From Paraeggerthella hongkongensis (lineage in GTDB: Bacteria > Actinomycetota > Coriobacteriia > Coriobacteriales > Eggerthellaceae): 64,000 nt of DNA. The notes under the pieces are model-generated. The model saw only the letters and a list, made by a program, of their open reading frames with translations. It was not told where the DNA came from and did not search any database. Both the position numbers and the translations under genes were made by a program. The stretch is taken from the NCBI RefSeq assembly GCF_003340345.1, contig NZ_PPTQ01000017.1:1-64000 (forward strand), in the 5' to 3' direction. Shown one piece after another: positions 8,722 through 38,867 of this stretch (positions within the stretch are counted from its first letter, which is position 1; each line of letters opens with the position of its first letter).

Positions 8722-8737
8722 CAAATTCCAATTTGTC
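8722..8737 (-). repeat. Shared hsdS 3' site, silent copy
   Basis: CAAATTCCAATTTGTC, identical to 14289-14304. CAAATT and AATTTG are exact inverted arms. Homology to the active gene stops here, marking the cassette end. Confidence 0.7.
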
Positions 8738-9272: not shown

Positions 9273-9305
9273 AACATCTCGATAAACCGGGATTTGACCA
9301 GTTCG
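9273..9305 (-). repeat. Shared hsdS central site, silent copy
   Basis: A 33-bp block encoding ELVKSRFIEMF, identical to 14804-14836. Its core resembles the 5' site: both contain TAAACCGGGRTTTG. Confidence 0.8.
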
Positions 9306-9764: not shown

Positions 9765-9785
9765 TCCCCGCTAAACCGGGGTTTG
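9765..9785 (-). repeat. Shared hsdS 5' site, silent copy
   Basis: TCCCCGCTAAACCGGGGTTTG, 21 bases when extended, identical to 15293-15313 in the active hsdS. CCCCG/CGGGG arms surround an asymmetric six-base spacer, an arrangement expected for a tyrosine-recombinase crossover site. It encodes KPRFSG. Confidence 0.8.
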
Positions 9786-9787
9786 AA

Positions 9788-10762
9788 TCAGCCGATGTAT
9801 TTGCGGTGAGACTGTTTAACGTTTTCCTGGTCGACCATTGCGTAACAGAGCGTCGTATCTATCTTGCTGTGACCCAAAAGTACCTGCACTTGTTCGATCG
9901 GCATGCCTTTTTCGATTGCCTTGGTGGCCAGCGTTCGTCTGAACTTATGCGGGTAGACCCTCGGCATTTCCAGGTTTCTTCCGAGGTTTCTGAGACGCGC
10001 TTCGACTCCGCTTATCTCCAGTCTGTTGTGGGGATTATTAAGGGAGACGAAAAGCGCCGGATTGTCATCATCTCTCTTGTCTAGATAAGCCTGGAGATGC
10101 ACCTTGGCACGCGCGTCAAAGTAAACCCTGCGCTCCTTGCTGCCCTTGCCGTGGACAATGCACTCGCGCGATTCGAAATCTATGTCATCGCTATCGAGCT
10201 TCACAAGTTCGCCGACGCGAATGCCTGCGGAGGCTAGCAAGTCAATGATTGCGAGGTCTCGAGTGTTTTCGCAGCTGTCGCGGAGCACCTCAAGCGACTC
10301 GTCGGTGTATACAGGTTTCACAGGCTTCGAAGTCCTGATCTTCTTTATCCTCTTAACAGGGCTTTTATAGATAAACCCCTCTTCCTCTAACCACGAGAAG
10401 AAGCTTGAGATTATCCGACGGATGTTGTCGATGGTCACGCTACTGGCGCAGCTTTCGCCCTGGTACCCGCTCAGATAATCACGAATCACGCTTGTCGATA
10501 TCTCGTAGGTTGGCTTGGACACCCGCTGGGCAAAACGTTTCAACGTGCTCGAATAATATGCCAGGGACCTCTCAGAGCAACCCTCCAGGCGCTTCGCCGC
10601 CAGAAACTTTTCAATCTGGCTCTCGATCGTGACATCGACGTCGCGTTTCGAGTCGCCGCCCCCGTATAGAACAGAGGCGAGGACGGCGCGCAGATGCCTC
10701 AACTGCGCGCCGTCCAAGACGGGTGCCATGAGCCTTTCGATTTCATTTGCCGTTTTGTGCAT
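9788..10762 (-). CDS. Tyrosine recombinase of the hsdS-shuffling locus
   Basis: A 324-residue XerC/D-like site-specific recombinase. The N-terminal SAM-like core-binding domain covers roughly residues 45-130 (IEKFLAAKRLEGCSERSLAY). The catalytic domain shows SAGIRVGELVKLD (first Arg), HKFRRTLATKAIEKG (HxxR), LLGHSKIDTTLCYAM (His and the nucleophilic Tyr). AAAGGAGA lies upstream of the ATG. It sits in the hsdM-hsdS-hsdR operon order, directly before the silent hsdS. Recombinases in this position in other bacteria invert or exchange hsdS target-recognition domains; that role is inferred here from context and from the shared sites. Confidence 0.9.
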   Translation of the reverse strand: MHKTANEIERLMAPVLDGAQLRHLRAVLASVLYGGGDSKRDVDVTIESQIEKFLAAKRLEGCSERSLAYYSSTLKRFAQRVSKPTYEISTSVIRDYLSGYQGESCASSVTIDNIRRIISSFFSWLEEEGFIYKSPVKRIKKIRTSKPVKPVYTDESLEVLRDSCENTRDLAIIDLLASAGIRVGELVKLDSDDIDFESRECIVHGKGSKERRVYFDARAKVHLQAYLDKRDDDNPALFVSLNNPHNRLEISGVEARLRNLGRNLEMPRVYPHKFRRTLATKAIEKGMPIEQVQVLLGHSKIDTTLCYAMVDQENVKQSHRKYIG

Positions 10763-10813
10763 TTCATGTCTCCTTTCGAGGTACCTTGCTCGTGAGATAT
10801 GAAACGCGAAACG

Positions 10814-13800
10814 TTACGCCGCGGGCTTCTCCGCGTTGTCTTTGATGTTCCTGATGATGCCGATGAGCAGCATCTGCTTTTTCGTGTCGAAGAGCCGCAC
10901 GAAGGATTGGGGCCTGTCGAAGGGCGCCTGCGCGAGCGCCGCGGGCTCCATGTACCCGTTCGCCTCGATGTACTCGATGACTCGGTGGACGAACGCGATC
11001 TGCTGCTCGCTCAGGGTCTCGTCGTTGATGAACTCCGCGAACGCCTCCATGGCGGCATCATGGTCGAGCTTGACTATCTTGCGCACCAGCAGACCGAACG
11101 GGGTGTCGCCGTATGCCCGGCTGTAATCCTCGGCCGTGCCGAGCTCGCTCGTGAATATGCGCTCGAGCTCGCCGTATTCGAACTCGGTCATCGGCTTGTT
11201 CATCCTGAGCTTGTTGATGACGAGGTTGTCGCCGAAGTCGTTTAGGAACCTGTTCACCTTCAGCTTGTAGTCTGCGAAGTCCTCGTCCGGGACCAAGGTC
11301 ACGCCGTAGACCGTGTCGGTCACCGGGTCCGCCAGCGCCGTGTAGATCGGCTTCCTGCCCGGCCCCTGGTTGACGAAGAACTTGACGATTCCCCTCAGCT
11401 CCTTGCGGATGCGCTCGATCTCGAGCGCCGTGATGCCGTCGAAGAATCCCTCGTCTGTTATCTCCTGCAGGACCGGCAGCTTCTCCTTCACCTGCGGGAT
11501 GGTGATCATCTTTTGCAATCCGACCGAGATGGTCAGAAGCTTCTTGCAGTACGCGTCCACCTTCATCCCGTCGCAGAGCGCGCACATGAAGCCGTACATG
11601 AGGGCGTCGAAGCGCAGGGCGTCTACGTCCGGCTCGTCGTTGTGGACGAGCGGGGCTATCTCCGTCTGGAGCTCGCCCAGGTCGCCGTCGTTGATGAAGA
11701 CGTAGGACGTCTCCTGCTTGTACTTCTGCACCGCCGGGCGATGGAGCCTGACGCTGACAAGCTCCTCGTCGAGTTGGACGACCTGGTAGTGGATGTCGGC
11801 GACGATGTCCTTCCTCCAGGACTGCCAGTCGTCTCCTGCGAACGCCGCCGTCTGGAAGGTCTTGGCCAGTTGCGCCTGGCGCGCGAAGACCGTCTCGGAC
11901 AGTGAGGATCCCGTCCTGCCCTCGACCGCATCGCCGTCCTCGCCGAAGTACTGGAAGTTCCTGCACCAGTCGAAGATGAAGAACCTCTCCTTGTCCGGGT
12001 ACGCTCCGCCCGGACGCGAGTCGTCCAGCGGGTCGACCACGTCCAGCCCGGGGCGCAGGCGCGTGCCGCGTCCGACCATCTGCCAGAACTTGATCTTCGA
12101 CCTCACCTTCTTGAAGAAGACAAGGTTCACGATCTCCGGCACGTCGATGCCGGTGTCCATCATGTCGACCGAGACGGCGATGACGGGTAGGTCCTTGAGC
12201 TTGAACTCGTCGATGATCGTATAGGAGTAGTCGTCGCTGTGGACGACGCGCTTTATGTAGCCGCCCTTCGCGAGCTTGGGGTAGAGCTTCCCGAAGCGCT
12301 CGACCACGTAGTCGGCGTGCTTGCGGTTCGCCGCGAAGACGATCGTTTTCCCCAGCGTCTCACCGCCATCGACGCGGATTCCCTTGTCCACCAGCGTCTG
12401 CAGCACGTTGTCCACGGTCTGCTCGTTGAAGAGCCACCGGTCGATGTCGGTCTCGGGTATGAAGTCAGGCGTCTCGTATCCCGCCGCCTCGAAGTCCTCG
12501 TCGATCCTCTCCTTGTCCTCTTCGGACAGGTCGTCGTATGTGACCCCCTCGTCGAGGAAGCTCGTGTGCGTCTCTATCCCGAGGTACGGCACGAGCACGT
12601 GGTCCTGGTAGACCGCGGTCTCGTACTCGTACACGTAGGTTGGGACGCCGCGCTCGACCTCGAAGAAGTCGTAGGTGTTGCGGTCCACCTCGTTCGCTGG
12701 CGTCGCCGTGAGCCCGACGACCAGCGCGTCGAAGTAGTCGAATATCGCCTTGTACTTCTTGAAGATGGAACGGTGCGCCTCGTCGACGATGATGAGGTCG
12801 AAGTGCGCCGGGGTGAACATGCGGTCGCCGTCCTCGTTGCGCACGGAGTCGATCGCGTTAAGGATGGTCGGGTAGGTGGAGAAGACGATGCGCGCGTCGC
12901 GCTCGTCCTTGTTCTTGCACAGGTTGCAAAGGGAGACGTTGGGCAGGTACTCCTGGTAGGCGTGCTTCGCCTGGCTCACCAAGGCGACCCGGTCCGCGAG
13001 GAAGAGCGCGTTCTTCACGCGGTTGCTGCGCATGAGCACGTCGGTCAGGCCGGCCGACACGCGGGTCTTGCCGGTGCCCGTGGCCATGACGAGCAGGCTC
13101 CTGCGGTGCCCCTCCTCGATGTTCGCGCAGACTCGGCTGATGGCCTCGACCTGGTAATAGCGGCCGGAGATGTCCATGTTCACCTTGACCGTCGAGAGGG
13201 GCAGAACCGTGTCCTTGCGGTTGAGGATAGTCTGCAGCTCTCCCTGCGAGAACAGGCCGCTCACCTTGCGCATCGGGGGCGTCTCGTCGTCGACGAAGAA
13301 CGTCTCGAAGCCGTTGGAGAGGAATATGGGAGGCCGGTATCCGTACTTCGCGTTCAGACAGTCCGCGTAGAGGCGGGCCTGCTGAAGCCCCTTCTGGGGC
13401 GAGTACATCGCACGTTTGGCCTCGAGTATCGCGAGCGGTTTGCCGTCCTTGCCGAGCAGGAGGTAGTCGATGAACCCCGCGCCGGTGCTGTTGCCCGGCT
13501 CGACGGGCATGCCGTGCACCTCGAACTCCTCGACGACGTCCTCGTCCATCGTCCAGCCTGCGATCGCGAGATCCATGTCGATGTAGAGCTTGCGCGTCTC
13601 GTATTCGGAGATCTCCTCCGGGTTGAACGACCGGCTGGAGATGTTCGAGCTCTTCGCCTGGGCGAGCTCCTCGCGCATCGCCCTCACTTCGTCCTCGAGC
13701 TTCTTTATCGTCTCGTCCTGGCTTGCTACCAGGGCTTCCCTCCGCCGGATCGCGTCTACCGTCTGCTTTGTCATGGGCACGCTTGCTCGGGGGATCTTCG

Positions 13801-14209
13801 ACTCGTCAAAGGAGCGGTCTACGTAGTCGGGCCCGTAGCAATAGTCGATCCAGTCCACGAAGTCGAAAAGCGCGCGCAGGGAGAGGACCGCCTGCTGCGG
13901 TTTGATCGTCGCCTCGGTGTGCACCGCTTGGTTGCCGAGCTTGTTCACGGCGAGAAGCTTTCGCCACACGCGCTCGTCGACGCATTCCTTGAACGAGTAT
14001 TCGTGGAGAAGCGACGAGAGGTTATCCTTGTAGGGCATGCTGATGGAGCTGTCGGCGGCATAGACCCATTTCACCGCGAGCTCGAGCGCCTTGCGGCACC
14101 CGATCGCGCACATTGCCGGAGCTGAAGCGAAAACCCTTTCAGCCTCGATGCACGCATTGGCGAACAGGTCGTAGTATCCGTCGTCCCTTTTCAGAAAGTC
14201 GAAGTTCAT
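10814..14209 (-). CDS. hsdR: Type I restriction enzyme, R subunit
   Basis: The 1131-residue motor-nuclease subunit of a type I restriction-modification complex. Residues 1-150 form a DUF4145-like region. The nuclease domain follows with GAGFIDYLLLGKDGKP and LAILEAKR near 245-265 (D...ExK catalytic residues). The helicase core has MATGTGKTR near 378, VDEAHRS near 475, VGLTATP and QMVGRGTRLRPG. A coiled coil at about 165-200 (KKLEDEVRAMREELAQ) precedes the nuclease. The ATG is nine bases from the hsdS stop and its AGGAGA site overlaps that stop codon. It translocates and cuts unmodified DNA together with HsdM and HsdS. It appears intact. Confidence 0.95.
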   Translation of the reverse strand: MNFDFLKRDDGYYDLFANACIEAERVFASAPAMCAIGCRKALELAVKWVYAADSSISMPYKDNLSSLLHEYSFKECVDERVWRKLLAVNKLGNQAVHTEATIKPQQAVLSLRALFDFVDWIDYCYGPDYVDRSFDESKIPRASVPMTKQTVDAIRRREALVASQDETIKKLEDEVRAMREELAQAKSSNISSRSFNPEEISEYETRKLYIDMDLAIAGWTMDEDVVEEFEVHGMPVEPGNSTGAGFIDYLLLGKDGKPLAILEAKRAMYSPQKGLQQARLYADCLNAKYGYRPPIFLSNGFETFFVDDETPPMRKVSGLFSQGELQTILNRKDTVLPLSTVKVNMDISGRYYQVEAISRVCANIEEGHRRSLLVMATGTGKTRVSAGLTDVLMRSNRVKNALFLADRVALVSQAKHAYQEYLPNVSLCNLCKNKDERDARIVFSTYPTILNAIDSVRNEDGDRMFTPAHFDLIIVDEAHRSIFKKYKAIFDYFDALVVGLTATPANEVDRNTYDFFEVERGVPTYVYEYETAVYQDHVLVPYLGIETHTSFLDEGVTYDDLSEEDKERIDEDFEAAGYETPDFIPETDIDRWLFNEQTVDNVLQTLVDKGIRVDGGETLGKTIVFAANRKHADYVVERFGKLYPKLAKGGYIKRVVHSDDYSYTIIDEFKLKDLPVIAVSVDMMDTGIDVPEIVNLVFFKKVRSKIKFWQMVGRGTRLRPGLDVVDPLDDSRPGGAYPDKERFFIFDWCRNFQYFGEDGDAVEGRTGSSLSETVFARQAQLAKTFQTAAFAGDDWQSWRKDIVADIHYQVVQLDEELVSVRLHRPAVQKYKQETSYVFINDGDLGELQTEIAPLVHNDEPDVDALRFDALMYGFMCALCDGMKVDAYCKKLLTISVGLQKMITIPQVKEKLPVLQEITDEGFFDGITALEIERIRKELRGIVKFFVNQGPGRKPIYTALADPVTDTVYGVTLVPDEDFADYKLKVNRFLNDFGDNLVINKLRMNKPMTEFEYGELERIFTSELGTAEDYSRAYGDTPFGLLVRKIVKLDHDAAMEAFAEFINDETLSEQQIAFVHRVIEYIEANGYMEPAALAQAPFDRPQSFVRLFDTKKQMLLIGIIRNIKDNAEKPAA

Positions 14210-14217
14210 GGCGTCTC

Positions 14218-15321
14218 CTAGTCGCCGAAGTATTCCTGGGCGAGACTGTCGTATAGCGTCTGCAGGCGGTCGATCGACTGCCGTGCTTCAAATTCCAATT
14301 TGTCGACCTGTTGGACGAAGGCGGCGAACTCCTGTTGCAGTGCGATGGGAGGAAGCGGCATATAGAACCCTCGGAAGGCATCTTTGTTCACCTTGGGCAT
14401 CTGAGCCCTTCCGGAGAGGGGAAGCACGTAATCCAGAAAGTAATCCGAGCGCATTGCATAAGCCAAAAAGACACGGTCGCAAACACCGCTGTTGGGAAGA
14501 ATCGGATAGGCGTCAGCCGAACATACTCCATCGAAATTAGGGAGAGCAACCTTATTGAGCATGGGACGAATCTTGCTATAAATGATGTGTTTCGAGGTGA
14601 ATAGGTATTTCCCGCTCTTCACGTTGTCCTGCGAGACCGTTCGATAGCCGGATAGTTTCCCTGTATTGCTTTCGATACTGTCGATCCCGATATGAGGAAA
14701 ATCCGCTATGGCGTCAAGGTCTTTGGTCATGCGCGTATCAATCGCTGCAAAGTCATCGAATTTCTTCACTTCCCAGCCAAACGGATTGTCGCCCAGCTCC
14801 CCAAACATCTCGATAAACCGGGATTTGACCAGTTCGGAATTCTTACGCAGTGTCATTTCGTTAATAGAAATTAGCTCTAGAATCCGATCGAGGGTTTCAG
14901 CAATTGAATCCTGTTCGACCTCGTCGTGGACAGCGAACGTTGCATCTCTCAGCAGCTTAAAGTGCCTGCTGTATCCAAGATTCTCAATCTTTGTGCTGCG
15001 TAATGCGTGATACCAATATCTAACATTTGCCGAAAGGCGCGGCTTGAGAATCTTCACACCATCGGCGCCTGCAAAGAATGGTTCTTCGACGTACTTTACG
15101 CAACGGGTATGGTCTCCAAACACGATTGCCGGCACATCAAGCACGAGCCCAGAGCTATCGTTCGAATAGCCCGCAATTAGTTCTTGCCCCTGATCGATCA
15201 CCGGGTGCACTCCAGCTTCCAGATAATCCTTCTGCTTAATCTTCCTGACGCCTCGTGAAATATCCGCAAATGCATCAGCGAAGTCCAGTCTCTCCCCGCT
15301 AAACCGGGGTTTGCTAGCCAT
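14218..15321 (-). CDS. hsdS: Type I restriction enzyme, specificity subunit (active copy)
   Basis: A 367-residue DNA-recognition subunit starting at the ATG at 15321 (MASKPRFSGE), which overlaps the hsdM stop by eight bases. Two target-recognition domains occupy about residues 10-150 and 185-310. They are separated by the conserved helix SELVKSRFIEMFGE and closed by AAFVQQVDKLEFEARQSIDR and LQTLYDSLAQEYFGD. The recognition domains differ completely from those of the silent copy at 8597-9785, while the start, middle and end are shared, so cassette exchange would change the recognised sequence. An upstream in-frame start at 15354 would lie inside hsdM and is not needed. Confidence 0.93.
   Translation of the reverse strand: MASKPRFSGERLDFADAFADISRGVRKIKQKDYLEAGVHPVIDQGQELIAGYSNDSSGLVLDVPAIVFGDHTRCVKYVEEPFFAGADGVKILKPRLSANVRYWYHALRSTKIENLGYSRHFKLLRDATFAVHDEVEQDSIAETLDRILELISINEMTLRKNSELVKSRFIEMFGELGDNPFGWEVKKFDDFAAIDTRMTKDLDAIADFPHIGIDSIESNTGKLSGYRTVSQDNVKSGKYLFTSKHIIYSKIRPMLNKVALPNFDGVCSADAYPILPNSGVCDRVFLAYAMRSDYFLDYVLPLSGRAQMPKVNKDAFRGFYMPLPPIALQQEFAAFVQQVDKLEFEARQSIDRLQTLYDSLAQEYFGD
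14289..14304 (-). repeat. Shared hsdS 3' site, active copy
   Basis: Identical to 8722-8737. It encodes DKLEF at the point where the active copy continues into its C-terminal helix. Confidence 0.7.
14804..14836 (-). repeat. Shared hsdS central site, active copy
   Basis: Identical to 9273-9305 in the silent cassette and in the same orientation. It lies between the two target-recognition domains, so exchange between this site and the 5' site would replace only the first domain. Confidence 0.8.
15293..15313 (-). repeat. Shared hsdS 5' site, active copy
   Basis: Identical to 9765-9785 and in the same orientation. It lies directly after the start codon of hsdS, so exchange here keeps the start and swaps the first recognition domain. 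Confidence 0.8.
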
Positions 15322-16834
15322 TGAGACCACCGCCGAGCATCTTGTTGAGCGCAACTAAGCCTTCCGCCATCTGCTTGTTCAAATCGGCGAGCTCCTCGAG
15401 GATTTCACTTGTCGGCGGGTACTCGACGCGCTCGTAGGTCGTCTCGACGTACTTGTTGAAGCTGAAGTCGTAATCGTTCTCGATGATTTCTGAACGCGGC
15501 ACCAGGAAGCTTTTGTCCTTGCGGGTGCGATTCTTCTCGCTGGCGAGGTCGTTCCAGCGGGAGACGATATCCGGGATGTCGTCGTTCTTCTCATCGCGAT
15601 CGCGCTTGTCGTCGAGCGTGTAGCCGTCGCCTTCCATGTTGTAGAGCCAGACGTCTTCGGTGCCTCCGGCGTTCGTCTTCGTGAAAACCAGAATTGCAGT
15701 GCTGACTCCTGAATACGGCTTGAATACGCCGCTGGGCATATAGATGATCGCCTCGAGCTTCTGGTAGTCGACGAGCTCCCGTCTAAGCTGCCCGTACGCC
15801 TTGGAGTCGGATCGGAACAGCACGCCGTTCGGCACGATGCACGCGCACCTGCCGCCCAGTTTGAGCATCCGCAGGAAGAGCGCCACGAAGAGGAGCTCAG
15901 TCTGCTTGGAGTCGACGATCGACTTGAGGCTGTTGTCGATGTCCTCTGCGTCGACCGATCCCGTGAAGGGCGGATTAGCGAGGATGACATCGTACTTGCC
16001 GCGGACGGTGTTGTTCTTTGAGATACTGTCCAGATAGCGCACGTCCGGCTGGTCGACGGAGTGGAGCATGAGGTTCATCGCCGAGATGCGCAGCATCGTC
16101 TGGTCCATCTCGAAGCCGGAGAACTGCGGCCCCTTGCCGTTGTTGCCGGTGAAGCAATCCCATGCGTCGGAGTCCATCTCGGGGCCGTAGACGTTGCGAA
16201 TGTGCTCCGCGGCGGAAATCAGGAAGCCGGCGGTGCCGCATGCGGGATCGCAGATGAGCTGGTTCGGCTTGGGCTCGACGAAGTGGACCATCATGTCGCG
16301 GATGTGTTTCGGCGTCCTGAACTGGCCGTTGGTGCCGGCGGTGTTCAGCTTGGAGAGCATGTACTCGTAAAGGTCGCCCAGGTCGCCGATATCGTCTACG
16401 AAGTCGGAAAACAGAGCGTCGATTCCGTCCACTGCCTTCTGCAGTGTCTTCGGGGTGGGGATTCCGAACGTCGCGGATTCCATGCTGCGGGTGAAAGCCG
16501 TGTCTTCCCCGAGAGTCTTGATGAACGGGAAGGCATATTCGCTCACCGTAGAGAACATAGTCTCCGCTGGTTTGTCCTTGAGCCTGCTCCAGCGTAGCTC
16601 TTCGCCGTCGATCTCGACGCCCGCTGCGTTCTTGTACACGACGGGGAATACATGCGCCTGCTCGACTCCGAGCAGAGTCTCCATCTTCTCGATCTCGAAT
16701 TCACGCTCGTCGAGTTGGTGCATGAACATGAGATAGGTCAGCTGGCTGATGACCTCGAGAGGGTTGGTGATGCCCCCTTCCCACATCTTCTGCCAGATGT
16801 CGTCTACCTTGTTCTTCGTAGCTCCGGTGATCAT
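15314..16834 (-). CDS. hsdM: Type I restriction enzyme, methyltransferase subunit
   Basis: A 506-residue N6-adenine DNA methyltransferase subunit. An N-terminal HsdM_N helical domain (VDDIWQKMWEGGITNP, YLMFMHQLDEREFE) precedes the catalytic domain with SAM motif I DPACGTAGFLISAAEHI near 200 and the catalytic NPPF (VILANPPFTGS) near 289. It methylates the site specified by HsdS and protects host DNA. The ATG lies nine bases after the RHH gene stop, and the stop overlaps the hsdS start, so all four proteins are co-translated. No lesions are seen. Confidence 0.95.
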   Translation of the reverse strand: MITGATKNKVDDIWQKMWEGGITNPLEVISQLTYLMFMHQLDEREFEIEKMETLLGVEQAHVFPVVYKNAAGVEIDGEELRWSRLKDKPAETMFSTVSEYAFPFIKTLGEDTAFTRSMESATFGIPTPKTLQKAVDGIDALFSDFVDDIGDLGDLYEYMLSKLNTAGTNGQFRTPKHIRDMMVHFVEPKPNQLICDPACGTAGFLISAAEHIRNVYGPEMDSDAWDCFTGNNGKGPQFSGFEMDQTMLRISAMNLMLHSVDQPDVRYLDSISKNNTVRGKYDVILANPPFTGSVDAEDIDNSLKSIVDSKQTELLFVALFLRMLKLGGRCACIVPNGVLFRSDSKAYGQLRRELVDYQKLEAIIYMPSGVFKPYSGVSTAILVFTKTNAGGTEDVWLYNMEGDGYTLDDKRDRDEKNDDIPDIVSRWNDLASEKNRTRKDKSFLVPRSEIIENDYDFSFNKYVETTYERVEYPPTSEILEELADLNKQMAEGLVALNKMLGGGLNG

Positions 16835-22427: not shown

Positions 22428-22496
22428 GTTCATATATGAACGGTTTTACAATTGCATAGTAATAGTTCATATCTGAACGGTCAATATATACCGTTC
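22428..22496. promoter_or_regulatory. Divergent promoter with three palindromic operators
   Basis: Between the minus-strand integrase operon and the plus-strand XRE gene lie a perfect GTTCATATATGAAC (22428-22441), an imperfect GTTCATATCTGAAC near 22465-22478, and GAACGGT/ACCGTTC arms around eight bases (22475-22496). All share GAAC half-sites, suggesting one repressor, probably the XRE protein, controls both directions. A TATAGT -10-like box follows. Confidence 0.65.
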
Positions 22497-22679
22497 ATTT
22501 TCGTGCTATAGTTTTCACATGTTTCAAACAGTGCGCGGAATGCTAGGCCAGGAGGAAGACTTGAAGACCGGCGACCTCATCAAGAAGTACAGGAAGATGC
22601 GCGGCATGGCGCAGAAGCAGCTCGCCGCCGAGTGCGGGCAGACCGATTCCGCCATCCGCAACTACGAGCTCGGCAACAG
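22475..22679 (+). repeat. 205-bp direct repeat, copy 1
   Basis: Covers the GAACGGT operator, promoter and the first 39 codons of the XRE gene. It is nearly identical to 25639-25845, with a few substitutions and a two-base difference in the AT spacer of the operator. The repeats bracket the PHP-ATPase cargo. Confidence 0.9.
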
Positions 22680-25638: not shown

Positions 25639-25845
25639 GAACGGTCAATATATATACCGTTCACTTTCGTGCTATAGTTTTCACATGTTTCAGACGATGT
25701 GCGGAATGCTAGGCCAGGAGGAAGACTTGAAGACCGGCGACCTCATCAAGAAGTACAGGAAGATGCGCGGCATGACGCAGAAGCAGCTCGCCGCCGAGTG
25801 CGGGCAGACCGATTCCGCCATCCGCAACTACGAGCTCGGCAACAG
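25639..25845 (+). repeat. 205-bp direct repeat, copy 2
   Basis: Matches 22475-22679. Here the operator arms GAACGGT/ACCGTTC are separated by ten rather than eight bases, and the repeat is followed by the natural continuation of the regulator gene. Confidence 0.9.
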
Positions 25846-26210: not shown

Positions 26211-26524
26211 CTATTGCCCTGAAACGCCTCCTGAACCATTGTAGGTCGATAGTTCTATTGATTCGGATTTTCGAGCCCGAGCGCACCACCCGATTCGACC
26301 CAAAATAACGACCGAAAACGCACGGGGAATAGTTGCATCTGGAATAGTTTCCAAGCGATTTCCAGCCTATGAATTCTTCCCAAAACCCCGCTTTCGCAGG
26401 GTGTGCCCGAAAATTTATTCCCCTATCACGAACAGGGCTTTTGAAAAATAACGCTTCCCAAAACCCCGTTGATTCGGGATTGATTCGAATCAGCGGAAAT
26501 CGAGCCGTTTTCAGAGAAATAATA

Positions 26525-26782
26525 GTTGCAGGTGGCTTTGCGGATTATCACCAAGACTCAAATCCTACATAGGGTACATGCGGCCCCACAGCGACCGTCT
26601 GTCCACACCCCGCAGAATAAATCCTAATCAGAAAACAGCAGGTCAGATCACAAAAAGAGCCCCGATTCCTGTTGGAACCGGGGCTGATTCGGAAAATTTA
26701 TTCTCGTTTGTTGCAGGTGGCTTTGTAAACCCCGAAACGCTCTGAAACAAACTCGGGCGCTTTGAATGGTTGCAGGTGGCTT
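26525..26782 (+). repeat. Three GTTGCAGGTGGCTT repeats left of the 26.8-kb att site
   Basis: Exact copies at 26525-26538, 26710-26723 and 26769-26782, same orientation. They look like integrase arm-type or excisionase sites. The third runs into TGGCTTACGG, a 10-mer also tandemly repeated at 48161-48190. Confidence 0.65.
26658..26685 (-). terminator. Minus-strand hairpin terminator
   Basis: AGCCCCG/CGGGGCT arms with an inner TTCC/GGAA pair. On the minus strand it is followed by CTTTTTG. The gene it ends would lie to the right; none is intact there. Confidence 0.5.
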
Positions 26783-26820: not shown

Positions 26821-26912
26821 ATATTCAGGAGTACGTGAACTCAATGGGGTGTCAGACCTGCGATTATGTTTACTCACGGCACCGCAAAATCATCCCAAAA
26901 CCGGAACTCACT

Positions 26913-26934
26913 TGGAACTCAGCACTGAGTTCCA
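26913..26934. repeat. 22-bp perfect palindrome shared with the third att region
   Basis: TGGAACTCAG-CA-CTGAGTTCCA within a block of about 50 bp (26903-26952) that recurs at 38818-38867 with a few changes, including the following CACGCGATAGCG. The second copy has one mismatch in the palindrome. Confidence 0.7.
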
Positions 26935-26970
26935 CTTTAGCACGCGATAGCGCTGGAATGGTAACAGGTT

Positions 26971-27103
26971 ACCGGGGAGTAAATCCCTGATCAGCGGAAA
27001 CGTGAAACGATTGCGCGCAACTGAGCTCAAGCCGGAATTGACCCCCCCCCCAACACTCCCTGGGTTTTACCGGGGAGTAAATTTTCGCTACCAGGGAGTA
27101 AAT
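26971..27103 (+). repeat. Three ACCGGGGAGTAAAT repeats right of att site 1
   Basis: Copies at 26971-26984, 27069-27082 and 27090-27103 (the last has ACCAGG). Same orientation, no coding frame. Possibly arm-type binding sites paired with the left-hand family. Confidence 0.6.
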
Positions 27104-27261: not shown

Positions 27262-27534
27262 TTATAACTCATGATATCTCTCATATAGATGTCTTGCATG
27301 AATGTTACTCTCTACAACGGCGTTGAATTGCAATACTCTGAATCCGAGTTCACGTCCCATTTTCAAGCAATCCGTGACCAGTTGCTCCTCGATATGCTGT
27401 CCGCGCGCATCTGAAGAAACGGCATAACTTGCATTACAGATATGACCGCATCTTCCAACATTGTTCGGATGGAGAACATATGCACAGTGGGTTGTATATC
27501 CTCTTTGCGGTCGATTGCGAATTCCGCCTTGCAA
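27262..27534 (-). pseudogene. GNAT acetyltransferase fragment
   Basis: The frame contains CGHICNASYAVSSDARGQHI then EEQLVTDCLKMGRELGFRVL and QFNAVVESNIHARHLYERYH, the acetyl-CoA-binding and C-terminal core of a GNAT N-acetyltransferase. It stops right after HLYERYHEL, where an intact enzyme continues for 30-40 residues. No start with a ribosome site is present and the N-terminal third is missing. A 39-bp palindrome lies shortly upstream. Relic. Confidence 0.7.
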
Positions 27535-28356: not shown

Positions 28357-28508
28357 GGCGGCTGGATAACGTTTAGCGCCATCAACTCGTCATCGCTCAG
28401 GATGAAGATACATCCTTCGATAAATAAAGTCAAGTCTAGTGTGTCCCAATATTGTAAAACTGTGTCCCGTATTGTACAATTCGAATTGGAAAGGAATAGG
28501 AGGAAGCC

Positions 28509-29552
28509 GTGAAGAAAAGAAACGTGATCAATCTGATTCGATACCATTCGGAGAGGAATGAGCCGGCATTTCGTGCCGAGGCTCTCGCTATCGCGCAGGA
28601 ATTCGACAAGGCTGGTGATGCACAGCTCGCCGAATACATCATGGCCCTTCTCTCCGACGCCAACACTTTCGTCCCTCAGATGGACGAGGCTCCGTGCTTC
28701 CTGAGCGCGGTAAGTCCCGCAGTGTCAGCGTTGCCCTTGCCGGAAGCCATCGCTTCAGACATATCAGGCATCACCAATGCCATTCGCGGTAATGTTGGAG
28801 TGAACAAATTTCTGTTCCAAGGACCTCCTGGCACAGGCAAGACCGAGGCCGCTAAACAGATTGCGCGAATCTTGAACAGGGACATGTTCATGGTCGACTT
28901 TGACCTGCTCATTGATAGTAAGCTTGGCCAAACCGGAAAGAACATCGACGCCTTATTCTCCGAGATCTCCAGCTTCAGGCACCCGGAAAGGGTCATCGTA
29001 TTGTTCGATGAGATAGATGCGCTTGCGCTAGATAGAAGCAGCAGCAACGACGTTCGCGAGATGAGCCGAGCCACCTCCATCCTCCTACGTGAACTCGATC
29101 GGCTGGATGACTCCATTGCCCTCATCGCAACCACCAACCTCTTCGATTCCTTCGATAGGGCGCTGGTCAGGAGGTTTGACGCATGCGTGAACTTTGATAG
29201 GTATTCGCAGGACGACCTTGTCGAGATCGCGGAAGTCATCGCAAACGAGCTGCTTCCACAGTTCAAGAATGCCGGCAGGGACATGCGACTTTTCAAGAAG
29301 ATCCTGTCGCTGTCCAACGGTCTCCCTTATCCAGGCGACCTCAGGAATATGATTAAGTCTGCTATAGCATTTTCTGATCCAGAGAGCGAGTACGACTACC
29401 TCAAGCGTCTGTACAGACAGCTCGCGAATTCCGCTGCCATCGATGTTGACGTATTGAAGGAACAGGGATTCACGGTCAGGGAGATGGAGAAGCTCACGGG
29501 TATTTCCAAAAGTACGCTTTCCAGACAGTTGAGTGGAGGAAGCGATGAGTAA
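28509..29552 (+). CDS. AAA+ ATPase of a two-gene ATPase/subtilase module
   Basis: A 347-residue AAA+ protein from a GTG with AGGAGG upstream. Walker A FQGPPGTGKTEAAKQIARIL near 103-122, Walker B VIVLFDEIDALAL near 164-176, sensor 1 ALIATTNLFDS, and arginine finger region DRALVRRFD near 216-224, as in FtsH/classic-clade AAA+ proteins. Residues 325-343 (FTVREMEKLTGISKSTLSRQ) form a C-terminal helix-turn-helix. It overlaps the S8 protease gene by eight bases. It may act as a sensor or gate that activates the protease; this is inferred from the pairing. Confidence 0.9.
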   Translation: MKKRNVINLIRYHSERNEPAFRAEALAIAQEFDKAGDAQLAEYIMALLSDANTFVPQMDEAPCFLSAVSPAVSALPLPEAIASDISGITNAIRGNVGVNKFLFQGPPGTGKTEAAKQIARILNRDMFMVDFDLLIDSKLGQTGKNIDALFSEISSFRHPERVIVLFDEIDALALDRSSSNDVREMSRATSILLRELDRLDDSIALIATTNLFDSFDRALVRRFDACVNFDRYSQDDLVEIAEVIANELLPQFKNAGRDMRLFKKILSLSNGLPYPGDLRNMIKSAIAFSDPESEYDYLKRLYRQLANSAAIDVDVLKEQGFTVREMEKLTGISKSTLSRQLSGGSDE

Positions 29553-31764
29553 CGCAATTCTGCAGTTGCGTGGCACCTTCAACCAAAAACGAAACTCGTC
29601 GCGTCCCGGCCCTCCGTCGCTTCCTGCCCGAAAAGCTGTGTCCTCTGAAAAGGTGAGGGCTCTTAGGGATTCCCTTGTCGGAATCCAGGAATACTGGGAG
29701 GGCTTCGAACATGATTATAAGCCCCTTGTTGCGATTCGTTATGAGAGGATCATCGCGAAGAGCGGTCGTGTGAGGAGGCTTCTGTCAGAGCCAGGACCAA
29801 GCTCGTCTAATAGCACTATCGTTGGAGCCAGGTTTCACGATAATGGCAAGTTCAGACAGCATGTGATCACCCACTGTGTAAGCGAGCGCTCTCTCGAGGC
29901 TGCCATCGAGGACCTGTCCAGCCTCGCTTCTTGCATTGATGCGCTGTGTGAAGGAGAGGTAACTCCGGACCGCCTGAAGGGGATCAATGAGCAGAAGGTT
30001 TCTTTCGAGCACCTGCCGTTGTCCAGAAGTGCTTTTTCTAGGCTCGTTGTTGACGTATGTCATGTCGAGCGTTTTGAACTGAACGTCCCTGAGGAGTCGA
30101 TCGAAGAAACGTCCATGGTCACCCTGTACAAGGGGACAGGCATTGATAATACGGAATTTCTCAGAGAAATTGGCGTGGCGGAACTGAACCTTCGTACCTA
30201 TGATGAATCTACTTACCTTTTGACTCCCGATCAGTACAGGCTTCTCTATAATGCAGCGCCTCAGCTGATTGCGATGGCGATAAAGGACATCAATGAGATT
30301 CCACGTGACGAGATTGTGGGGGATGAGAACGACTGCGGAATGATTCCGTCTCCTGGCAGTGAGCCATGGGTTGGCGTGTTCGATACCCCATTCGACGACA
30401 GGGTTTACTTTTCCGATTGGGTTAAAGCCACTGTCGAGGTCGACCCTGAGCTTATAGCTCCTGGTGACTATTCTCATGGAACCGGAGTGAGCTCCATCAT
30501 CGTAGATGGTCCTTCCCTGAATCCGGGGATAGATGATGGATGTGGACGTTTTCGTGTCCGCCATGTCGGCATCGCTGCAGGCGGGAAGTTCAGCTCCTTC
30601 ACAGTTGTCCGAGAAATCGAAAAGGCTGTCATCAGGTTTCCCGAGGTTAAGGTGTGGAACCTGTCCCTAGGGTCGTTCCTTGAATGTCCAGAGAACTTCG
30701 TCTCCGCAGAGGCTTCCGCCCTTGACAGAATCCAGGTGGAGCACGATGTGATTTTCGTAATCGCCGGCACAAACGATGAAAATTACTCAGGGGAAAAAAG
30801 GATCGGTCCGCCTGCTGACTCCGTCAACTCCCTTGTCGTGAACGCCGTGAGAATGGATGGCTCTCCTTGCTCCTACTCAAGGAAAGGCCCGGTGCTCTCG
30901 TTCTTCGCAAAGCCAGATGTCTGCTACTGCGGTGGCGATCGGGATCAGCCTATGTACGCCTGTCAGGAGCCGGGTAGGACGGCAATGGTTCTGGGAACTT
31001 CGTACGCCGCTCCGTGGATAGCAAGAAAGATGGCCTACTTGATCCATATTGTTGGGTTCAGTAGGGAGATTGCGAAAGCCTTGATTATCGACTCGGCTGG
31101 CGGTTGGAGACAAAGCGACAATCCTCATCATCTCGGTTACGGCGCCGTGCCTAAACGGATCGAGGATATTCTTTCGACTTCAGACGACGAGATTAAGTTC
31201 GTCCTGAATGGAACATCTGAACTGTTCGATACATACACGCATAACATTCCCGTGCCGGTCGTCCATGACAAGCATCCATATTATGCGAAGGCGACGCTTT
31301 GCTACTTCCCGCATTGCGAGCGAAGCCAGGGCGTTGACTACACGAGCACGGAGATCTCTATGACGTTTGGACGTCTGAATGGGGAGAAGATCCAGCCTAT
31401 CGACAACAATAGTCAAGACCTTGAGGGCTCTTTTACCTACGAGGAAGAGGCGAGAAAGTTCTTCCGCAAGTGGGATAACGTCAAGCGCATTGCGGAGGAA
31501 ATCAACCCCAGGGGACGGGGAAAGAAGAGCTACGAGAATGGGTTGTGGGGCATCAGCTTGAAAACCAAGGAACGACTTGACGAGAGTTTCGGCGAGAATA
31601 TGCGCTTCGGGCTCATTGTTACGCTGCATGCAATTGATGGCGTGAACCGTATTGATGATTTCATCCAACGGTGCTCTTTCCGTGCTTGGATCGTCAACAA
31701 AATCAACGTTGAGACGCAAGTGGATATCTTCAATACCGCAGAGCAGGAGATCGAATTTGAGTGA
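29545..31764 (+). CDS. Subtilisin-like serine protease (S8 family)
   Basis: A 739-residue protein from the ATG at 29545 with GAGGAAG upstream. There is no signal peptide, so it acts in the cytoplasm. The S8 triad is complete: Asp in WVGVFDTPFDD (about 279), His in DYSHGTGVSSIIVDG (about 310), Ser in LGTSYAAPWIARKMAYL (about 483), with the oxyanion Asn in VIAGTNDEN (about 408). An N-terminal region of about 260 residues and a C-terminal region of about 230 residues have no recognised domains and may sense or position substrates. Paired with an AAA+ ATPase in an island of defence genes, it is a good candidate for abortive proteolysis of host or phage proteins. Confidence 0.9.
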   Translation: MSNAILQLRGTFNQKRNSSRPGPPSLPARKAVSSEKVRALRDSLVGIQEYWEGFEHDYKPLVAIRYERIIAKSGRVRRLLSEPGPSSSNSTIVGARFHDNGKFRQHVITHCVSERSLEAAIEDLSSLASCIDALCEGEVTPDRLKGINEQKVSFEHLPLSRSAFSRLVVDVCHVERFELNVPEESIEETSMVTLYKGTGIDNTEFLREIGVAELNLRTYDESTYLLTPDQYRLLYNAAPQLIAMAIKDINEIPRDEIVGDENDCGMIPSPGSEPWVGVFDTPFDDRVYFSDWVKATVEVDPELIAPGDYSHGTGVSSIIVDGPSLNPGIDDGCGRFRVRHVGIAAGGKFSSFTVVREIEKAVIRFPEVKVWNLSLGSFLECPENFVSAEASALDRIQVEHDVIFVIAGTNDENYSGEKRIGPPADSVNSLVVNAVRMDGSPCSYSRKGPVLSFFAKPDVCYCGGDRDQPMYACQEPGRTAMVLGTSYAAPWIARKMAYLIHIVGFSREIAKALIIDSAGGWRQSDNPHHLGYGAVPKRIEDILSTSDDEIKFVLNGTSELFDTYTHNIPVPVVHDKHPYYAKATLCYFPHCERSQGVDYTSTEISMTFGRLNGEKIQPIDNNSQDLEGSFTYEEEARKFFRKWDNVKRIAEEINPRGRGKKSYENGLWGISLKTKERLDESFGENMRFGLIVTLHAIDGVNRIDDFIQRCSFRAWIVNKINVETQVDIFNTAEQEIEFE

Positions 31765-32022: not shown

Positions 32023-32327
32023 TGTAGTCAGCAGTGCGCGTGAGCTGGGGCTCCCTCTGCTCTCCTGTCGTGAAAACCATGTAGTCACCCTGTAGTCAGC
32101 GGTGACTACATACTCTGTAGTCACTTCAGGAGAGTATTTTTCACCCGACCGAAGAGTGACACGTTTGACCTGCGAAAACGTGGTTCGATTGCGCGCAACT
32201 GACTACATGAGAGGAAGCGGTGCCGACGGGGTGGGGCACTCCCCGACCCAAGAGTGACGATTTCCGAGTGAAGAGTAGCTGTCCTGAACTGCGGGGATTC
32301 GGCTTCACGGCACTGAAGCTGACTACA
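32023..32327. repeat. Seven TGTAGTCA octamers in both orientations
   Basis: Plus-strand copies at 32023, 32080, 32091 and 32116; inverted copies (TGACTACA) at 32103, 32200 and 32320. 32091-32110 contains an inverted pair. The stretch 32186-32202 (CGATTGCGCGCAACTGA) is identical to 27008-27024 near site 1. Confidence 0.75.
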
Positions 32328-32342: not shown

Positions 32343-34238
32343 TTATTCAATCTCGCGTAGACCGAGGACCATGGCTAGCGTGTGCTTCACGTCAAACCCC
32401 AAGCTCCAGACGTGCTGAGCTAACCCATCTCCGCTAAATACGGGAGCGAGAATGTCAATGACATCCCCCTCGAAAGTGTACTTGCCTTTTGCCTTCTCTC
32501 TGGCCTCATGGCGGAATCGGCTATATTGTCCTGGGTCGGTAAAGTTCACAACAGCCGCACTGTCCCTGATTTCAAAGTTCACTCCTCCGAACCGCTCCCT
32601 CAGGTTTTCTAAGATTTCCACCGCTCCATTTGTATCCAGCGAAGGCCCAAGCGCTAAATCCCTTGCCTGCTCGTTTTTCTCAAGAAAGGCTTCAAGCGGC
32701 CAATCAGTAACATCACTGAGCTCTATGAAGTCCAGTAAGTCAAAAGAAACTAAGCGATTTCTGATATCTTCCTGCGGGTTAACAGCCGGCATTAAATAGA
32801 TTGCCATGCTGCGTGCAAGCCAAATTGCCGATTCTTCTGCGGAGAACGAATTCCACGGCTCCCTAATCGACTCCATTGCCTTGAGGAGCTCTACGCAGTG
32901 GTAGTCACCACAGGAGATAAAGTACTTCCGTGTCATTCCGTGTGTCGTCTCTGAATCGGCAATCGGATCGAGGGAGAATCTCCTCTCCGAGAGCCAGGCA
33001 TCCAGCCGCGCCCGCTGCTCTTCGGTAGGTCCGCTGTCATACGTAAACTGACGGTCGGGTCCGCTGACTGATTGGTAGACGTTCGACTCGTATTTGAACT
33101 TCTCTCTGCACATCTCGAGGAAGTAGATACTTTGCGCAGCGTGCAGAAAATTCTCGTCGGGGCGGAAGCGGATGTTGTGATGGTAGTTTAGGTTTATGGA
33201 CTGCCATTCCCCTATAGATAGGGTCTTCAAAAGCCGATCGGCCAAGATGGCTTCCTCAGCAGCCTGCCTGTAAATTCCTCCCTCGATAGATTGGAGCTCT
33301 TGTTTTGAAGGCCGGTGCTCGGCGATTTCTCTGTCGAGGGCGTCTTGCTTCATCTCTTCCAGTCGGGCTTCCCAGCCTGGCGCACGGCAATACCTTAGGC
33401 GGTCTTCCGCATCGGCAAGGGAATCCCTGTAAGTGCACGCGATCTTCTTCAATTCGCTTTCTGCGGAATCAATCGAAACGCGTTCACTCGGATTCTGGCG
33501 GACCATTCGCTCAACGAGGCCGTCGAGGTCGGACAGAAGCGGATACGCGTCTCCTATCCGCCTGAAGGCGCCTCCTCTCGGGACTTGCAGCGTGAAGAGC
33601 TCGTTCGTCATCAGCCCAAGGGCGAAGACGTCGGCGGCGGGTCCGACATCCTTCTGGTCCTCTCCCTTCATCTGCTCAGGAGCGAAATACGCTCTGTTCG
33701 CTAGCAGCTCCTTCGTCAGCGTCTTTACTGAACCGTCGAAATGCGCGATTCCGAAATCCGCTAAGACTAGGTGCGGTCCCTTTGGGTCGACAAGGACATT
33801 CTCTGGCTTGATGTCGCGATGCACCACGCCGTCGGCCTGAATTGAAAAAACGGCATCGTAGAGCTGGCTCAGGAGATTGAACTTCTGTTCTATGGGAACC
33901 CTCTCTGAAATCCAGTCTCTCAGGGTGCTCTCGAAGTACGGCATTACGTACTGAAGCTGCTTGCTGTCGGTATTCTTTCCCGTCGCCGTGCCTTTTTCCT
34001 CTGCGGATATGATTTGGATGACATGCTGCGAGCGGAATTTCCTGCAGTACTCGACTTCCTCCCGAAGGCGGTCGTTCTTGGTCTTGTTCTCCTTTTTATT
34101 TTCGTTGTAGAGCAGGATTGTCTTTATCGCATAGTGCTGACCTTTCGACTCTGCAAGGAGTACCGTGCCTTGCCCGCCCTGACCCAACTGTTTGATGATC
34201 CGATATGAGATGCCGTTAACATCGATTTCTTTTTCCAT
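32343..34238 (-). CDS. Cytoplasmic Ser/Thr protein kinase with large C-terminal region
   Basis: A 631-residue Hanks-type kinase starting at the ATG at 34238 (GGTGGAGG upstream). The kinase domain is complete: G-loop GQGGQGTV (19-26), AIK lysine at 39, catalytic loop HRDIKPEN (140-147), ADFG (160-163) and APEQ. No membrane segment or PASTA repeats are present. Residues about 280-631 match no family I know; they contain alternating helices. It is divergent from a HEPN-motif protein across a 357-bp gap. The kinase may phosphorylate and so restrain or trigger that partner, as kinases do in some phage-defence systems; this is inferred. Confidence 0.88.
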   Translation of the reverse strand: MEKEIDVNGISYRIIKQLGQGGQGTVLLAESKGQHYAIKTILLYNENKKENKTKNDRLREEVEYCRKFRSQHVIQIISAEEKGTATGKNTDSKQLQYVMPYFESTLRDWISERVPIEQKFNLLSQLYDAVFSIQADGVVHRDIKPENVLVDPKGPHLVLADFGIAHFDGSVKTLTKELLANRAYFAPEQMKGEDQKDVGPAADVFALGLMTNELFTLQVPRGGAFRRIGDAYPLLSDLDGLVERMVRQNPSERVSIDSAESELKKIACTYRDSLADAEDRLRYCRAPGWEARLEEMKQDALDREIAEHRPSKQELQSIEGGIYRQAAEEAILADRLLKTLSIGEWQSINLNYHHNIRFRPDENFLHAAQSIYFLEMCREKFKYESNVYQSVSGPDRQFTYDSGPTEEQRARLDAWLSERRFSLDPIADSETTHGMTRKYFISCGDYHCVELLKAMESIREPWNSFSAEESAIWLARSMAIYLMPAVNPQEDIRNRLVSFDLLDFIELSDVTDWPLEAFLEKNEQARDLALGPSLDTNGAVEILENLRERFGGVNFEIRDSAAVVNFTDPGQYSRFRHEAREKAKGKYTFEGDVIDILAPVFSGDGLAQHVWSLGFDVKHTLAMVLGLREIE

Positions 34239-34595
34239 GTGAACCTCCACCTAATGGGACAGGAGAACTGCATTTGATGAGCGATTTCAGAATTCTTTAA
34301 TTCTATTTCATCTCTTTGCATGGCCTTTGTTGACAGGAGCCTATTTACCCGGCTCGAACTTTTTGGCCGAATCGACTTGAAATCCAACCAACGCAATGAT
34401 ACGAATCAAGAATTCCTTGTCCGAAGGAACCACTGTACTCTGCGTGCATCTCGTCGATTGAAAGCCGCTGGACTGATTTTTCTCACAAGGGCTTCAGTGC
34501 GTGGGCGATTACTTCTTACCCGCGAGAAGCTGTCGTGAGAAAATTCGAAAAGCCAATACTCTGATTGACCGTTTTAATCGAATGGGAGCATAGCA
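34239..34595. promoter_or_regulatory. Divergent promoter region of the kinase and HEPN genes
   Basis: A 357-bp AT-richer gap between the two divergent genes. Open frames inside (for example 34320-34538) lack ribosome sites. It must contain both promoters; I cannot place boxes with confidence. Confidence 0.4.
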
Positions 34596-36581
34596 ATGCC
34601 TATCGACTTCAATGAAAACAGGGCTGAATACTTTCCTGCATCCGATCTTGCAGCGCCGTACTACTTCGAACGGGCTGGCGAGGTTTTGGGAAAGTGGACC
34701 ATGCAGGACATCGTAACCGTGAATGACGCCATCGAGGTGCATCAGTGCAGGATGATTGCAGAGGCCTATGGCAATTATCTCGAATGCGCGGATCCCGCAG
34801 CGCTAACCGAGTCTGCTGGAAGGCTTTTCGGCGCTGCGTGCGGAGTGGTTTCGGGCCTTATCGAGAGCAAGGGCCTTACGGCAGTCTTCGATGCCGTCGA
34901 GTTGCGGTACGCGGAACATTTCTGGGAGTTTCTCGCCGCGGCGAGCTTATGGGGCAATGTGTCGAGCAAGAACTTTGAGGCTCTGCTCAATGCTTTCCCA
35001 AATCAGATTTCATGTCTTCTGGGGTATCGGCAGGTGGTGAGCCGGTACGATGCATCGCTGACAGAGGCCATGCGAGCCAACGCCCGCATTTCAGCAGAGG
35101 CCATCATCAGCGCTTTCGCCGCGAAAGGCAATGAGGATAAGGATCTCTGCCTGCCGCGGTCCCTCTCAAACGCCGGAATTGACCAAATCATGCTGTCCTA
35201 TCTCGGCGGCACACCCCCGAAGGTAAACCTTAACCATGTTCGCGTTCTTGCCAGATGGCCCTCAAGAGCAAACGATAAATACAGCCCATCTCCCGAGGTG
35301 AGAGTCACGGCGAAGAGGCGTGCCATATTCCTAGAGAAGGAGATGTTTCCCGACCCAAATGCCGGCGTGCGCGTTGGCTCGGGTGTGCAGTTCTCGCCAG
35401 AGCAGAAGGCATGCAAGAAGGTGACGTATGAGAACGGCATTCTCAATCGCACGTTTAGCCTGGAGTGGCTTCAAGAATACACAGACCATGCAACCGTGCT
35501 CAACAACTTCCTCTACGTCTTCGACCTTATAGGAAGAGACGGCATACTGAATTGCTCTTCCCATGAGCGGACCGCATCCACGCTGTTGAAGGTCATGGGT
35601 CTGCATCCCCATGACGAGTACCAGATGACGCTTGAGGCGAGAGTAGAGAATATGGCTGTGCCAGGAGAGATTCTCTTGTACGAAAAGCTCTTGTTCGAGA
35701 ACGAAACGAGGCTCGAAGACGCAATCGAATGGTTCTTCAACGACTATATCAAGGACGAGTTCGAAGTCGAAGGCTTCAGCATCAGTCTCCCGACCGAGGG
35801 CACATCTTGGCTGGACAAGTGCAAGGCGATCGGTCCCGAGATCGAACGCGCGCTCAAGGCGTTCAAGTTATATGCTGAGAATGAGTTTATTGATACTGAC
35901 TATTTCCCGTACGTAACCATAAAAGACTTCAGGGAGGTTCCCTCGCTGCTCGACAGGAAGTACCTTGTTGAGGGTGAGAAATTCGAACTTCCTGCCAACT
36001 TGCTTCTCAGCGACCAGTCGCCGCTCGCGCACTCACCCACGCATCCAGAAGACGGCGAAGGGTTCTATGGGCTGGTAAATCGCTTTCGTCTCACGGAAAA
36101 CGATTTCTACGAGGTCTATCGTCCCCGACTAAAGTATTTAATCGACAACGGATTCGTGGAAACCGAAGACGACGGTGTGCTGCACCTGACCCTACGGGCC
36201 CACCTTGTTGCGCTGGTATGGAAACGGGGGGCGGCAAGGCGTAGCGATTTCGTCGGCCATTCTGACCAGATTGAGAAAATGGTGTCAGAAAAGACAATAG
36301 CATACTCGAGATCCCTGTTCTCGCCGGATGAGGCGGACTACCTGAGCTATCTGCTCAACAACGCGAAGTCCAGCAACGCCCTGGCCTTGAGGAATAAATA
36401 CGACCATGGATCTGGCTCGGTATCCGACCTCACGGAGAAGGGGATGGAGTCCGACTACTGTCTCATGCTGGCGGCGCTGATCGGCATTGCGCTGAAAATC
36501 AATGAGGATCTCTCGTGCGCGACCGGCAAGGGCGGCCTTGATCCTTGTGATTTGGTCGACTGGCCGTTGATGGAAGAATGA
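34596..36581 (+). CDS. Large protein with C-terminal HEPN-type motif
   Basis: A 661-residue protein with GGGAGC ahead of its ATG. The C-terminal 90 residues contain FSPDEADYLSYLLNNAKSSN then ALALRNKYDHGSGSVSD, whose RNKYDH (about 599-604) fits the R-x4-H active site of HEPN ribonucleases, followed by a helix (CLMLAALIGIALKI), as in DUF4209-like abortive infection proteins. The first 570 residues are helical with no domain I recognise. No signal peptide or membrane helix is seen. Divergent to the kinase, it is the likely effector of that pair (RNA cleavage leading to dormancy). The family call is tentative. Confidence 0.75.
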   Translation: MPIDFNENRAEYFPASDLAAPYYFERAGEVLGKWTMQDIVTVNDAIEVHQCRMIAEAYGNYLECADPAALTESAGRLFGAACGVVSGLIESKGLTAVFDAVELRYAEHFWEFLAAASLWGNVSSKNFEALLNAFPNQISCLLGYRQVVSRYDASLTEAMRANARISAEAIISAFAAKGNEDKDLCLPRSLSNAGIDQIMLSYLGGTPPKVNLNHVRVLARWPSRANDKYSPSPEVRVTAKRRAIFLEKEMFPDPNAGVRVGSGVQFSPEQKACKKVTYENGILNRTFSLEWLQEYTDHATVLNNFLYVFDLIGRDGILNCSSHERTASTLLKVMGLHPHDEYQMTLEARVENMAVPGEILLYEKLLFENETRLEDAIEWFFNDYIKDEFEVEGFSISLPTEGTSWLDKCKAIGPEIERALKAFKLYAENEFIDTDYFPYVTIKDFREVPSLLDRKYLVEGEKFELPANLLLSDQSPLAHSPTHPEDGEGFYGLVNRFRLTENDFYEVYRPRLKYLIDNGFVETEDDGVLHLTLRAHLVALVWKRGAARRSDFVGHSDQIEKMVSEKTIAYSRSLFSPDEADYLSYLLNNAKSSNALALRNKYDHGSGSVSDLTEKGMESDYCLMLAALIGIALKINEDLSCATGKGGLDPCDLVDWPLMEE

Positions 36582-38737: not shown

Positions 38738-38827
38738 AAAACCAAGAGCATGAACTCAACGGATTGTCTGACCAGCTATTATATTTATTTTTGGGTGCGC
38801 AAAACCATTCTAGAACTGGAACTTACT

Positions 38828-38849
38828 TGGAACTCAGCACTAAGTTCCA
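38828..38849. repeat. Copy 2 of the shared 22-bp palindrome
   Basis: TGGAACTCAG-CA-CTAAGTTCCA, one mismatch from perfect. The surrounding 50 bp match 26903-26952. Confidence 0.7.
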
Positions 38850-38867
38850 GTCTAGCACGCGATAGCG

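Follow-up and report, generated by a model that had tools for sequence, protein, structure and literature searches.

The overlapping genes at 28509-31764 of the window, the whole 64,000-nucleotide stretch of Paraeggerthella hongkongensis DNA that was analysed, very likely constitute a two-gene toxin-antitoxin of the IetAS kind: a cell-suicide, probably anti-phage unit carried in a mobile defence island. The first gene, ietA, encodes an AAA+ ATPase and the second, ietS, a subtilase with no recognizable export signal. Judged by sequence comparison, the pair is a divergent IetAS member and is not novel in kind. The initial annotation had called such a combination unusual, but it is of a type known from a plasmid since 2009 and from mycoplasmas since 2021. 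The pair itself is no surprise; the parts worth testing are a clade-specific pore loop in the ATPase and a predicted prodomain in the protease.

The two genes and their products

The ATPase gene lies upstream of the S8 gene and overlaps it, as initially annotated, and this is the IetAS gene order. How long is the overlap? A longer ietS reading frame (29533-31764, +) has an alternative GTG start at 29533, but ATG at 29545 is the likelier start, as it stands five bases 3' of a GGAGG; the overlap, ATGAGTAA, is then probably 8 nt rather than 20. The two genes are probably translationally coupled. An Rfam search of the window gave no match. The features of the pair are as follows.

28509..29552, + strand: IetA-type AAA+ ATPase gene, predicted antitoxin; 347 aa, GTG start, AGGAGG at 28498-28503
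28821..28844, + strand: Walker A, GPPGTGKT, aa 105-112; G105, G108, G110, K111 and T112 invariant in 90/90
28920..28928, + strand: pore-loop-1 position, KLG, aa 138-140; K in 79, R in 9 and H in 2 among 90
28998..29012, + strand: Walker B, VLFDE, aa 164-168; D167 and E168 invariant in 90/90
29445..29531, + strand: C-terminal helix-turn-helix (HTH), aa 313-341; three predicted helices
29535..29539, + strand: GGAGG, ribosome-binding site of ietS within ietA, read from the sequence
29545..31764, + strand: IetS-type subtilase gene, predicted toxin; 739 aa, ATG start
30103..30294, + strand: predicted I9-like prodomain of IetS, aa ~187-250 (VIA-align)
30382..30384, + strand: codon of catalytic Asp280, invariant in 90/90
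30475..30477, + strand: codon of catalytic His311, invariant in 90/90
30772..30774, + strand: codon of oxyanion-hole Asn410, invariant in 90/90
31000..31002, + strand: codon of catalytic Ser486 (GTSYAAP), invariant in 90/90
31180..31749, + strand: C-terminal beta domain of IetS, aa ~546-735; KP-43 (1wmd) aligns

IetA matches the Pfam AAA family (4.3e-26), and the PADLOC IetA model is its best (6.9e-39). In addition to the Walker residues, sensor N210 and R221/R222 are invariant in 90/90 homologues. The structure model (pLDDT 86.7) has a fold nearest to the ATPase domains of 26S Rpt, Vps4 and FtsH, and a sequence search of solved structures matched IetA to a generic AAA domain only. The one other IetA-like sequence in the genome is a weak AAA relative, a 786-aa open frame with 34% over the AAA core. 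The C-terminal HTH proposed at the outset is borne out by predicted helices at 313-318, 323-330 and 334-341 in a good-confidence model; S335 and R339 are kept in 88-89 of 90 homologues, and the HTH is conserved across most of the clade. It is degenerate in the IetA of Mycoplasma hyorhinis, so that autoregulation by IetA may not be general.

IetS carries the complete S8 triad that the initial annotation reported, D280, H311 and S486; triad and ATPase motifs are both intact, with no exception among the 90 homologues. PADLOC IetS is the best model (2.3e-61). A signal peptide was not found, again as annotated: there is no hydrophobic N-terminus, and the best 19-residue hydropathy in the first 40 windows is -0.07. 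The flanks, which had been described as unassigned, are so in Pfam, where the Peptidase_S8 match (6.5e-28) covers residues 275-533 only, but they are not structureless. The structure model (pLDDT 87.8, pTM 0.89) begins with an N-terminal part of ~180 residues; next come a beta-alpha-beta unit (~187-250) and the S8 domain, and a beta domain forms the C-terminal end.

Of interest is the unit that precedes the protease domain. The propeptide of subtilisin has 77 residues. VIA-align places 318 residues of unprocessed pro-subtilisin E across 187-544 of the IetS model, and about 246 residues of mature subtilisins across 263-544. Read from these alignment end points only, the extra ~70 residues approximate the length of the propeptide and suggest a built-in I9-like prodomain. 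The linker that follows has a pLDDT of 55 around 251-260, and the model thereby suggests a zymogen-like layout, a prodomain followed by a low-confidence linker. At the other end, KP-43 (1wmd) aligns over 272-694 (Z 28). The C-terminal domain is nearly as conserved as the S8 domain, with 19% of positions invariant vs 25%. No distinct fold could be assigned to the first 180 residues in a structure search made with the whole protein; a sequence search of solved structures found no IetS, and the genome has no second IetS copy.

A divergent and widespread branch of IetAS

The NCBIfam models IteA (NF042959) and IteS (NF042956) were the best in the library for IetA and IetS, at 105.1 bits against a cut-off of 510 and 158.9 bits against a cut-off of 900. 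As these scores are far below the cut-offs, the pair is not filed as an IteAS equivalog and shares only the broader kind. When its profiles are aligned with those of annotated IetAS pairs, the alignment extends over 665 columns for IetS (E 1.7e-56) and 332 columns for IetA, N-terminal helices and HTH included (E 2.4e-39). Ten annotated regions served for comparison; seven are of the canonical branch, and three, from a plasmid collection, belong to the present clade. Both proteins are thus homologous over their length, and alignment at near full length with canonical pairs points to the same kind of module in a divergent branch. IetS models match all 55 clade members tested, none closely. In a tree the clade forms a branch apart from the annotated pairs sampled; with members chosen by likeness to the window and a number of long branches, this tree does not amount to a formal classification. 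Low NCBIfam scores and a separate branch mean that function is transferred over a long distance from the annotated pairs; the link to mycoplasma pairs is a nearer one, though still at 38% identity.

Among 84,980 species genomes scanned, 161 relatives were found. The best 80 of the 161 are 43-50% identical, mostly at full length, and their hosts belong to Bacillota, Actinomycetota, Pseudomonadota, Bacteroidota, Campylobacterota, Fusobacteriota, Spirochaetota and Verrucomicrobiota, together with an archaeal Methanobrevibacter bin; many of these genomes are metagenome bins, so single host assignments may be wrong. With both branches counted, relatives are present in 61 plasmid records, 29 of them predicted conjugative, in 12 phage records and in seven viral contigs. 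The tree of the clade mixes phyla. Within Eggerthellaceae only 4 of 138 genomes have a strong match, and another genome of the same genus has no strong match to the pair. By these comparisons the clade is widespread and has moved horizontally.

The two genes travel together. The ATPase gene stands directly upstream in 87 of 92 sampled homologues, with a gap of -41 to +6 nt, and distances among IetA and among IetS sequences correlate (Mantel r 0.89; maximum 0.17 in 999 permutations), which upholds the view that cytoplasmic subtilase and AAA+ protein are one functional unit. The other five homologues lack an upstream ATPase or an intact pair: three are at contig ends, one locus (L046) has the ATPase with a frameshifted IetS, and L083:10001-12061 is the sole IetS that has upstream sequence (10 kb) yet no IetA. 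The last starts at residue 61, without the first 60 residues; it is a natural orphan and may be dead. Near-obligate pairing with exceptions that are broken or at contig ends is the pattern expected of a toxin that is intolerable alone.

The surrounding island

The pair lies in a lower-GC stretch at about 22-37 kb, mostly 50-54% vs 56-65% further right, which contains a TrlF/Ppl-like PHP-ATPase, an HTH gene, ietAS, a Ser/Thr kinase and PDC-S56. McrBC lies to the left of it, together with a type I restriction system and two tyrosine integrases. The region around ietAS is mobile and constitutes a defence island.

8600-16834: type I restriction system, two hsdS genes with a tyrosine recombinase between them
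32343-34250, - strand: Ser/Thr kinase, related to PD-T4-6 and MAD6 kinases, with a long C-terminal part that has no domain match
34596-36581, + strand: PDC-S56 candidate defence protein, adjoining the kinase (6e-127)

In the type I system an identical 21-nt sequence, TCCCCGCTAAACCGGGGTTTG, occurs at 9765-9785 and 15293-15313, and the hsdS genes have segments in common; this suggests specificity switching by recombination. Direct repeats of 196 nt (22484-22679 and 25650-25845, 97% identical) bracket the TrlF/Ppl-like ATPase gene, overlap the start of the HTH gene at 25637 and look like the mark of a recent cassette insertion or duplication. Imperfect direct repeats at 26988-27024 and 32166-32202 (37 nt, 84%) bracket ietAS, and a second set at 26836-26952 and 38751-38867 (117 nt, 80%) brackets ietAS, kinase and PDC-S56 together. 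No further copies of either were found elsewhere in the genome, and the two sets are possibly module borders.

ietS and the kinase gene run towards each other; in the gap between them, 305 bp (32023-32327) hold seven copies of TGTAGTCA, in both orientations, against an expectation of 0.73 for the full 64 kb and a total of only 31 in the 2.86 Mb genome. A DNA-binding protein could recognise these copies. An 18-nt motif near AATGGTTGCAGGTGGCTT has four copies at 26328-26782, a gene-poor stretch, and a GNAT acetyltransferase fragment of 90 aa (27262-27534, - strand) is apparently a remnant.

Do homologues keep similar company? The neighbours of 45 homologue loci are mixed, with C5 and N6/N4 DNA methylases and integrases present; these methylase and integrase families are absent among the 25 commonest families listed for 98 control proteins from random regions. 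The enrichment is supportive only, since it concerns a handful of 140, the 25 commonest families are those listed and the control comes from other taxa. The survey of homologues that the initial annotation proposed gives pairing in 87 of 92 and a modest signal of nearby methylases and integrases; some loci lie beside metabolic genes.

Mode of action and relation to known systems

What is known of relatives that have been tested? TA132/3 of Mycoplasma mycoides subsp. capri is a proven toxin-antitoxin, reported in 2021, with the antitoxin gene first in one operon (A132, 353 aa; T133, 757 aa) (PMC8562856). Cells do not survive deletion of A132 alone but do survive the double deletion; T133 alone causes a 3-log loss in E. 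coli, T133 plasmids lower M. capricolum transformants by 3-3.5 logs, and co-expressed A132 fully neutralises the toxicity (PMC8562856). SgiT is likewise toxic in E. coli and is rescued by SgiA (PMC5006074). On the behaviour of TA132/3 and SgiAT, toxin-antitoxin is the strongest functional statement available. Regarding phage, core replication proteins of phages reportedly activate ietAS (PMC10732053). Carriage of IetAS by a Pseudomonas filamentous (Pf) phage correlates with resistance, and a planned lysogen test of such a phage yielded no lysogens (PMC11878078). Our literature search found no phage assay for the window clade.

A mechanism may be proposed along these lines. IetS would be a cytoplasmic subtilase that cuts host proteins, or host and phage proteins, leading to growth stop or death. 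IetA, encoded first and probably on the same mRNA, would be made in step with it by translational coupling and would hold it inactive, either by binding or by remodelling at the expense of ATP; its HTH probably binds the promoter of its own operon. Release of IetS would follow if a phage interfered with IetA, or if loss of the element left IetA to decay. For the window pair we infer the DNA target of the HTH, the trigger, the substrate and the protection from phage in these terms, and the toxin and antitoxin roles by analogy with the relatives. The idea of a proteolytic defence module, put forward in the initial annotation, is reasonable with defence genes as neighbours and a family annotated as anti-phage, but the AAA+ protein is better seen as an antitoxin.

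Might the pair instead serve the element that carries it? As an addiction module with no real phage role it would kill cells that lose the island or plasmid, a possible reading though a less probable one. An element-maintenance role is reported for IetAS of pTiC58, according to the citing text of PMC5006074, and SgiAT stabilises SGI1 (PMC5006074). The plasmid-borne and conjugative relatives, the two tyrosine integrases within the island and the absence of the pair from another genome of the genus are in keeping with this. Against it, the pair has restriction and candidate defence genes as neighbours, and the family was reportedly scored as anti-phage by Gao et al. in 2020, the source of the names that the models bear. 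Addiction and anti-phage roles are compatible and not mutually exclusive.

A second alternative is a ClpXP- or FtsH-like machine in which IetA unfolds substrates and feeds them to IetS, the sense in which the protease had initially been described as gated by the AAA+ protein. The likeness of the IetA fold to Rpt, Vps4 and FtsH and the nearly obligate pairing agree with it. AAA+ motors that grip and thread, however, are expected to have an aromatic residue in pore loop 1. In IetA this position, assigned by analogy with classic AAA proteins and not from a complex, is K, R or H in 90/90, not the aromatic residue of ClpXP/FtsH/Lon-type machines, whereas annotated IetAS pairs have a hydrophobic residue (Y, L or F in three pairs with a recognised motif). 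The basic residue makes a lock or remodelling role likelier than substrate feeding. Subtilases, moreover, are open monomers that have no sequestered chamber. Among relatives with experimental data, the protease by itself is toxic and the ATPase renders it harmless, the opposite of dependence on an unfoldase. The machine is quite improbable, and for a protease toxin that an AAA+ antitoxin keeps inactive, 'AAA+-neutralised' is a better term than 'AAA+-gated'. That IetS is a housekeeping or secreted-type subtilase beside an unrelated ATPase is extremely unlikely: some homologues adjoin ordinary metabolic genes, but pairing across many phyla contradicts it, and the missing signal peptide, patchy occurrence in the family and low-GC island count against it as well.

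The clade offers natural variants with which to ask how an AAA+ protein silences a subtilase, as it is compact, present in many phyla and linked to the proven mycoplasma systems; the mechanism of IetAS is described in the literature as unknown. The conserved C-terminal domain, predicted prodomain and basic pore loop are specific predictions that can be mutated. The clade might even have a distinct activation design, with IetS a cytoplasmic zymogen inhibited by its own I9-like prodomain and a non-threading, basic-pore-loop IetA ring as both lock and DNA- or phage-sensing switch, more than a plain antitoxin, phage replication triggering self-processing of the suicide protease; this seems rather unlikely.

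How does the pair compare with known systems? Tk-SP (3afg) and pro-subtilisin E (3whi) are among the best structural matches to IetS, prodomain included, and the match to Tk-SP also takes in C-terminal parts. Unlike IetS both are secreted proteases, and we know of no AAA+ partner for either. IetAS itself (pTiC58, anti-phage IetAS, NCBIfam IteA/IteS) resembles the window pair in gene order, overlapping genes, full-length profile homology, C-terminal HTH and a cytoplasmic subtilase, with pairwise identity of about 25% across about 60% of IetS. SgiAT of Salmonella genomic island 1 is like IetAS, a subtilase toxin with an AAA-ATPase antitoxin on an integrative element, but belongs to the pTiC58-like branch, as placed by the identities published in PMC5006074. 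TA132/3 has the AAA-ATPase upstream of the subtilase, in the same order and with the same sizes as here; M. mycoides TA132/3 is likened by this published order and size, and the sequence link runs through M. hyorhinis, named among the homologue hosts (PMC8562856). The M. hyorhinis pair, the sole match in its record, falls inside the window clade in the tree, its IetS at about 38% identity. The tested TA132/3 copies differ in being chromosomal, with no known phage role.
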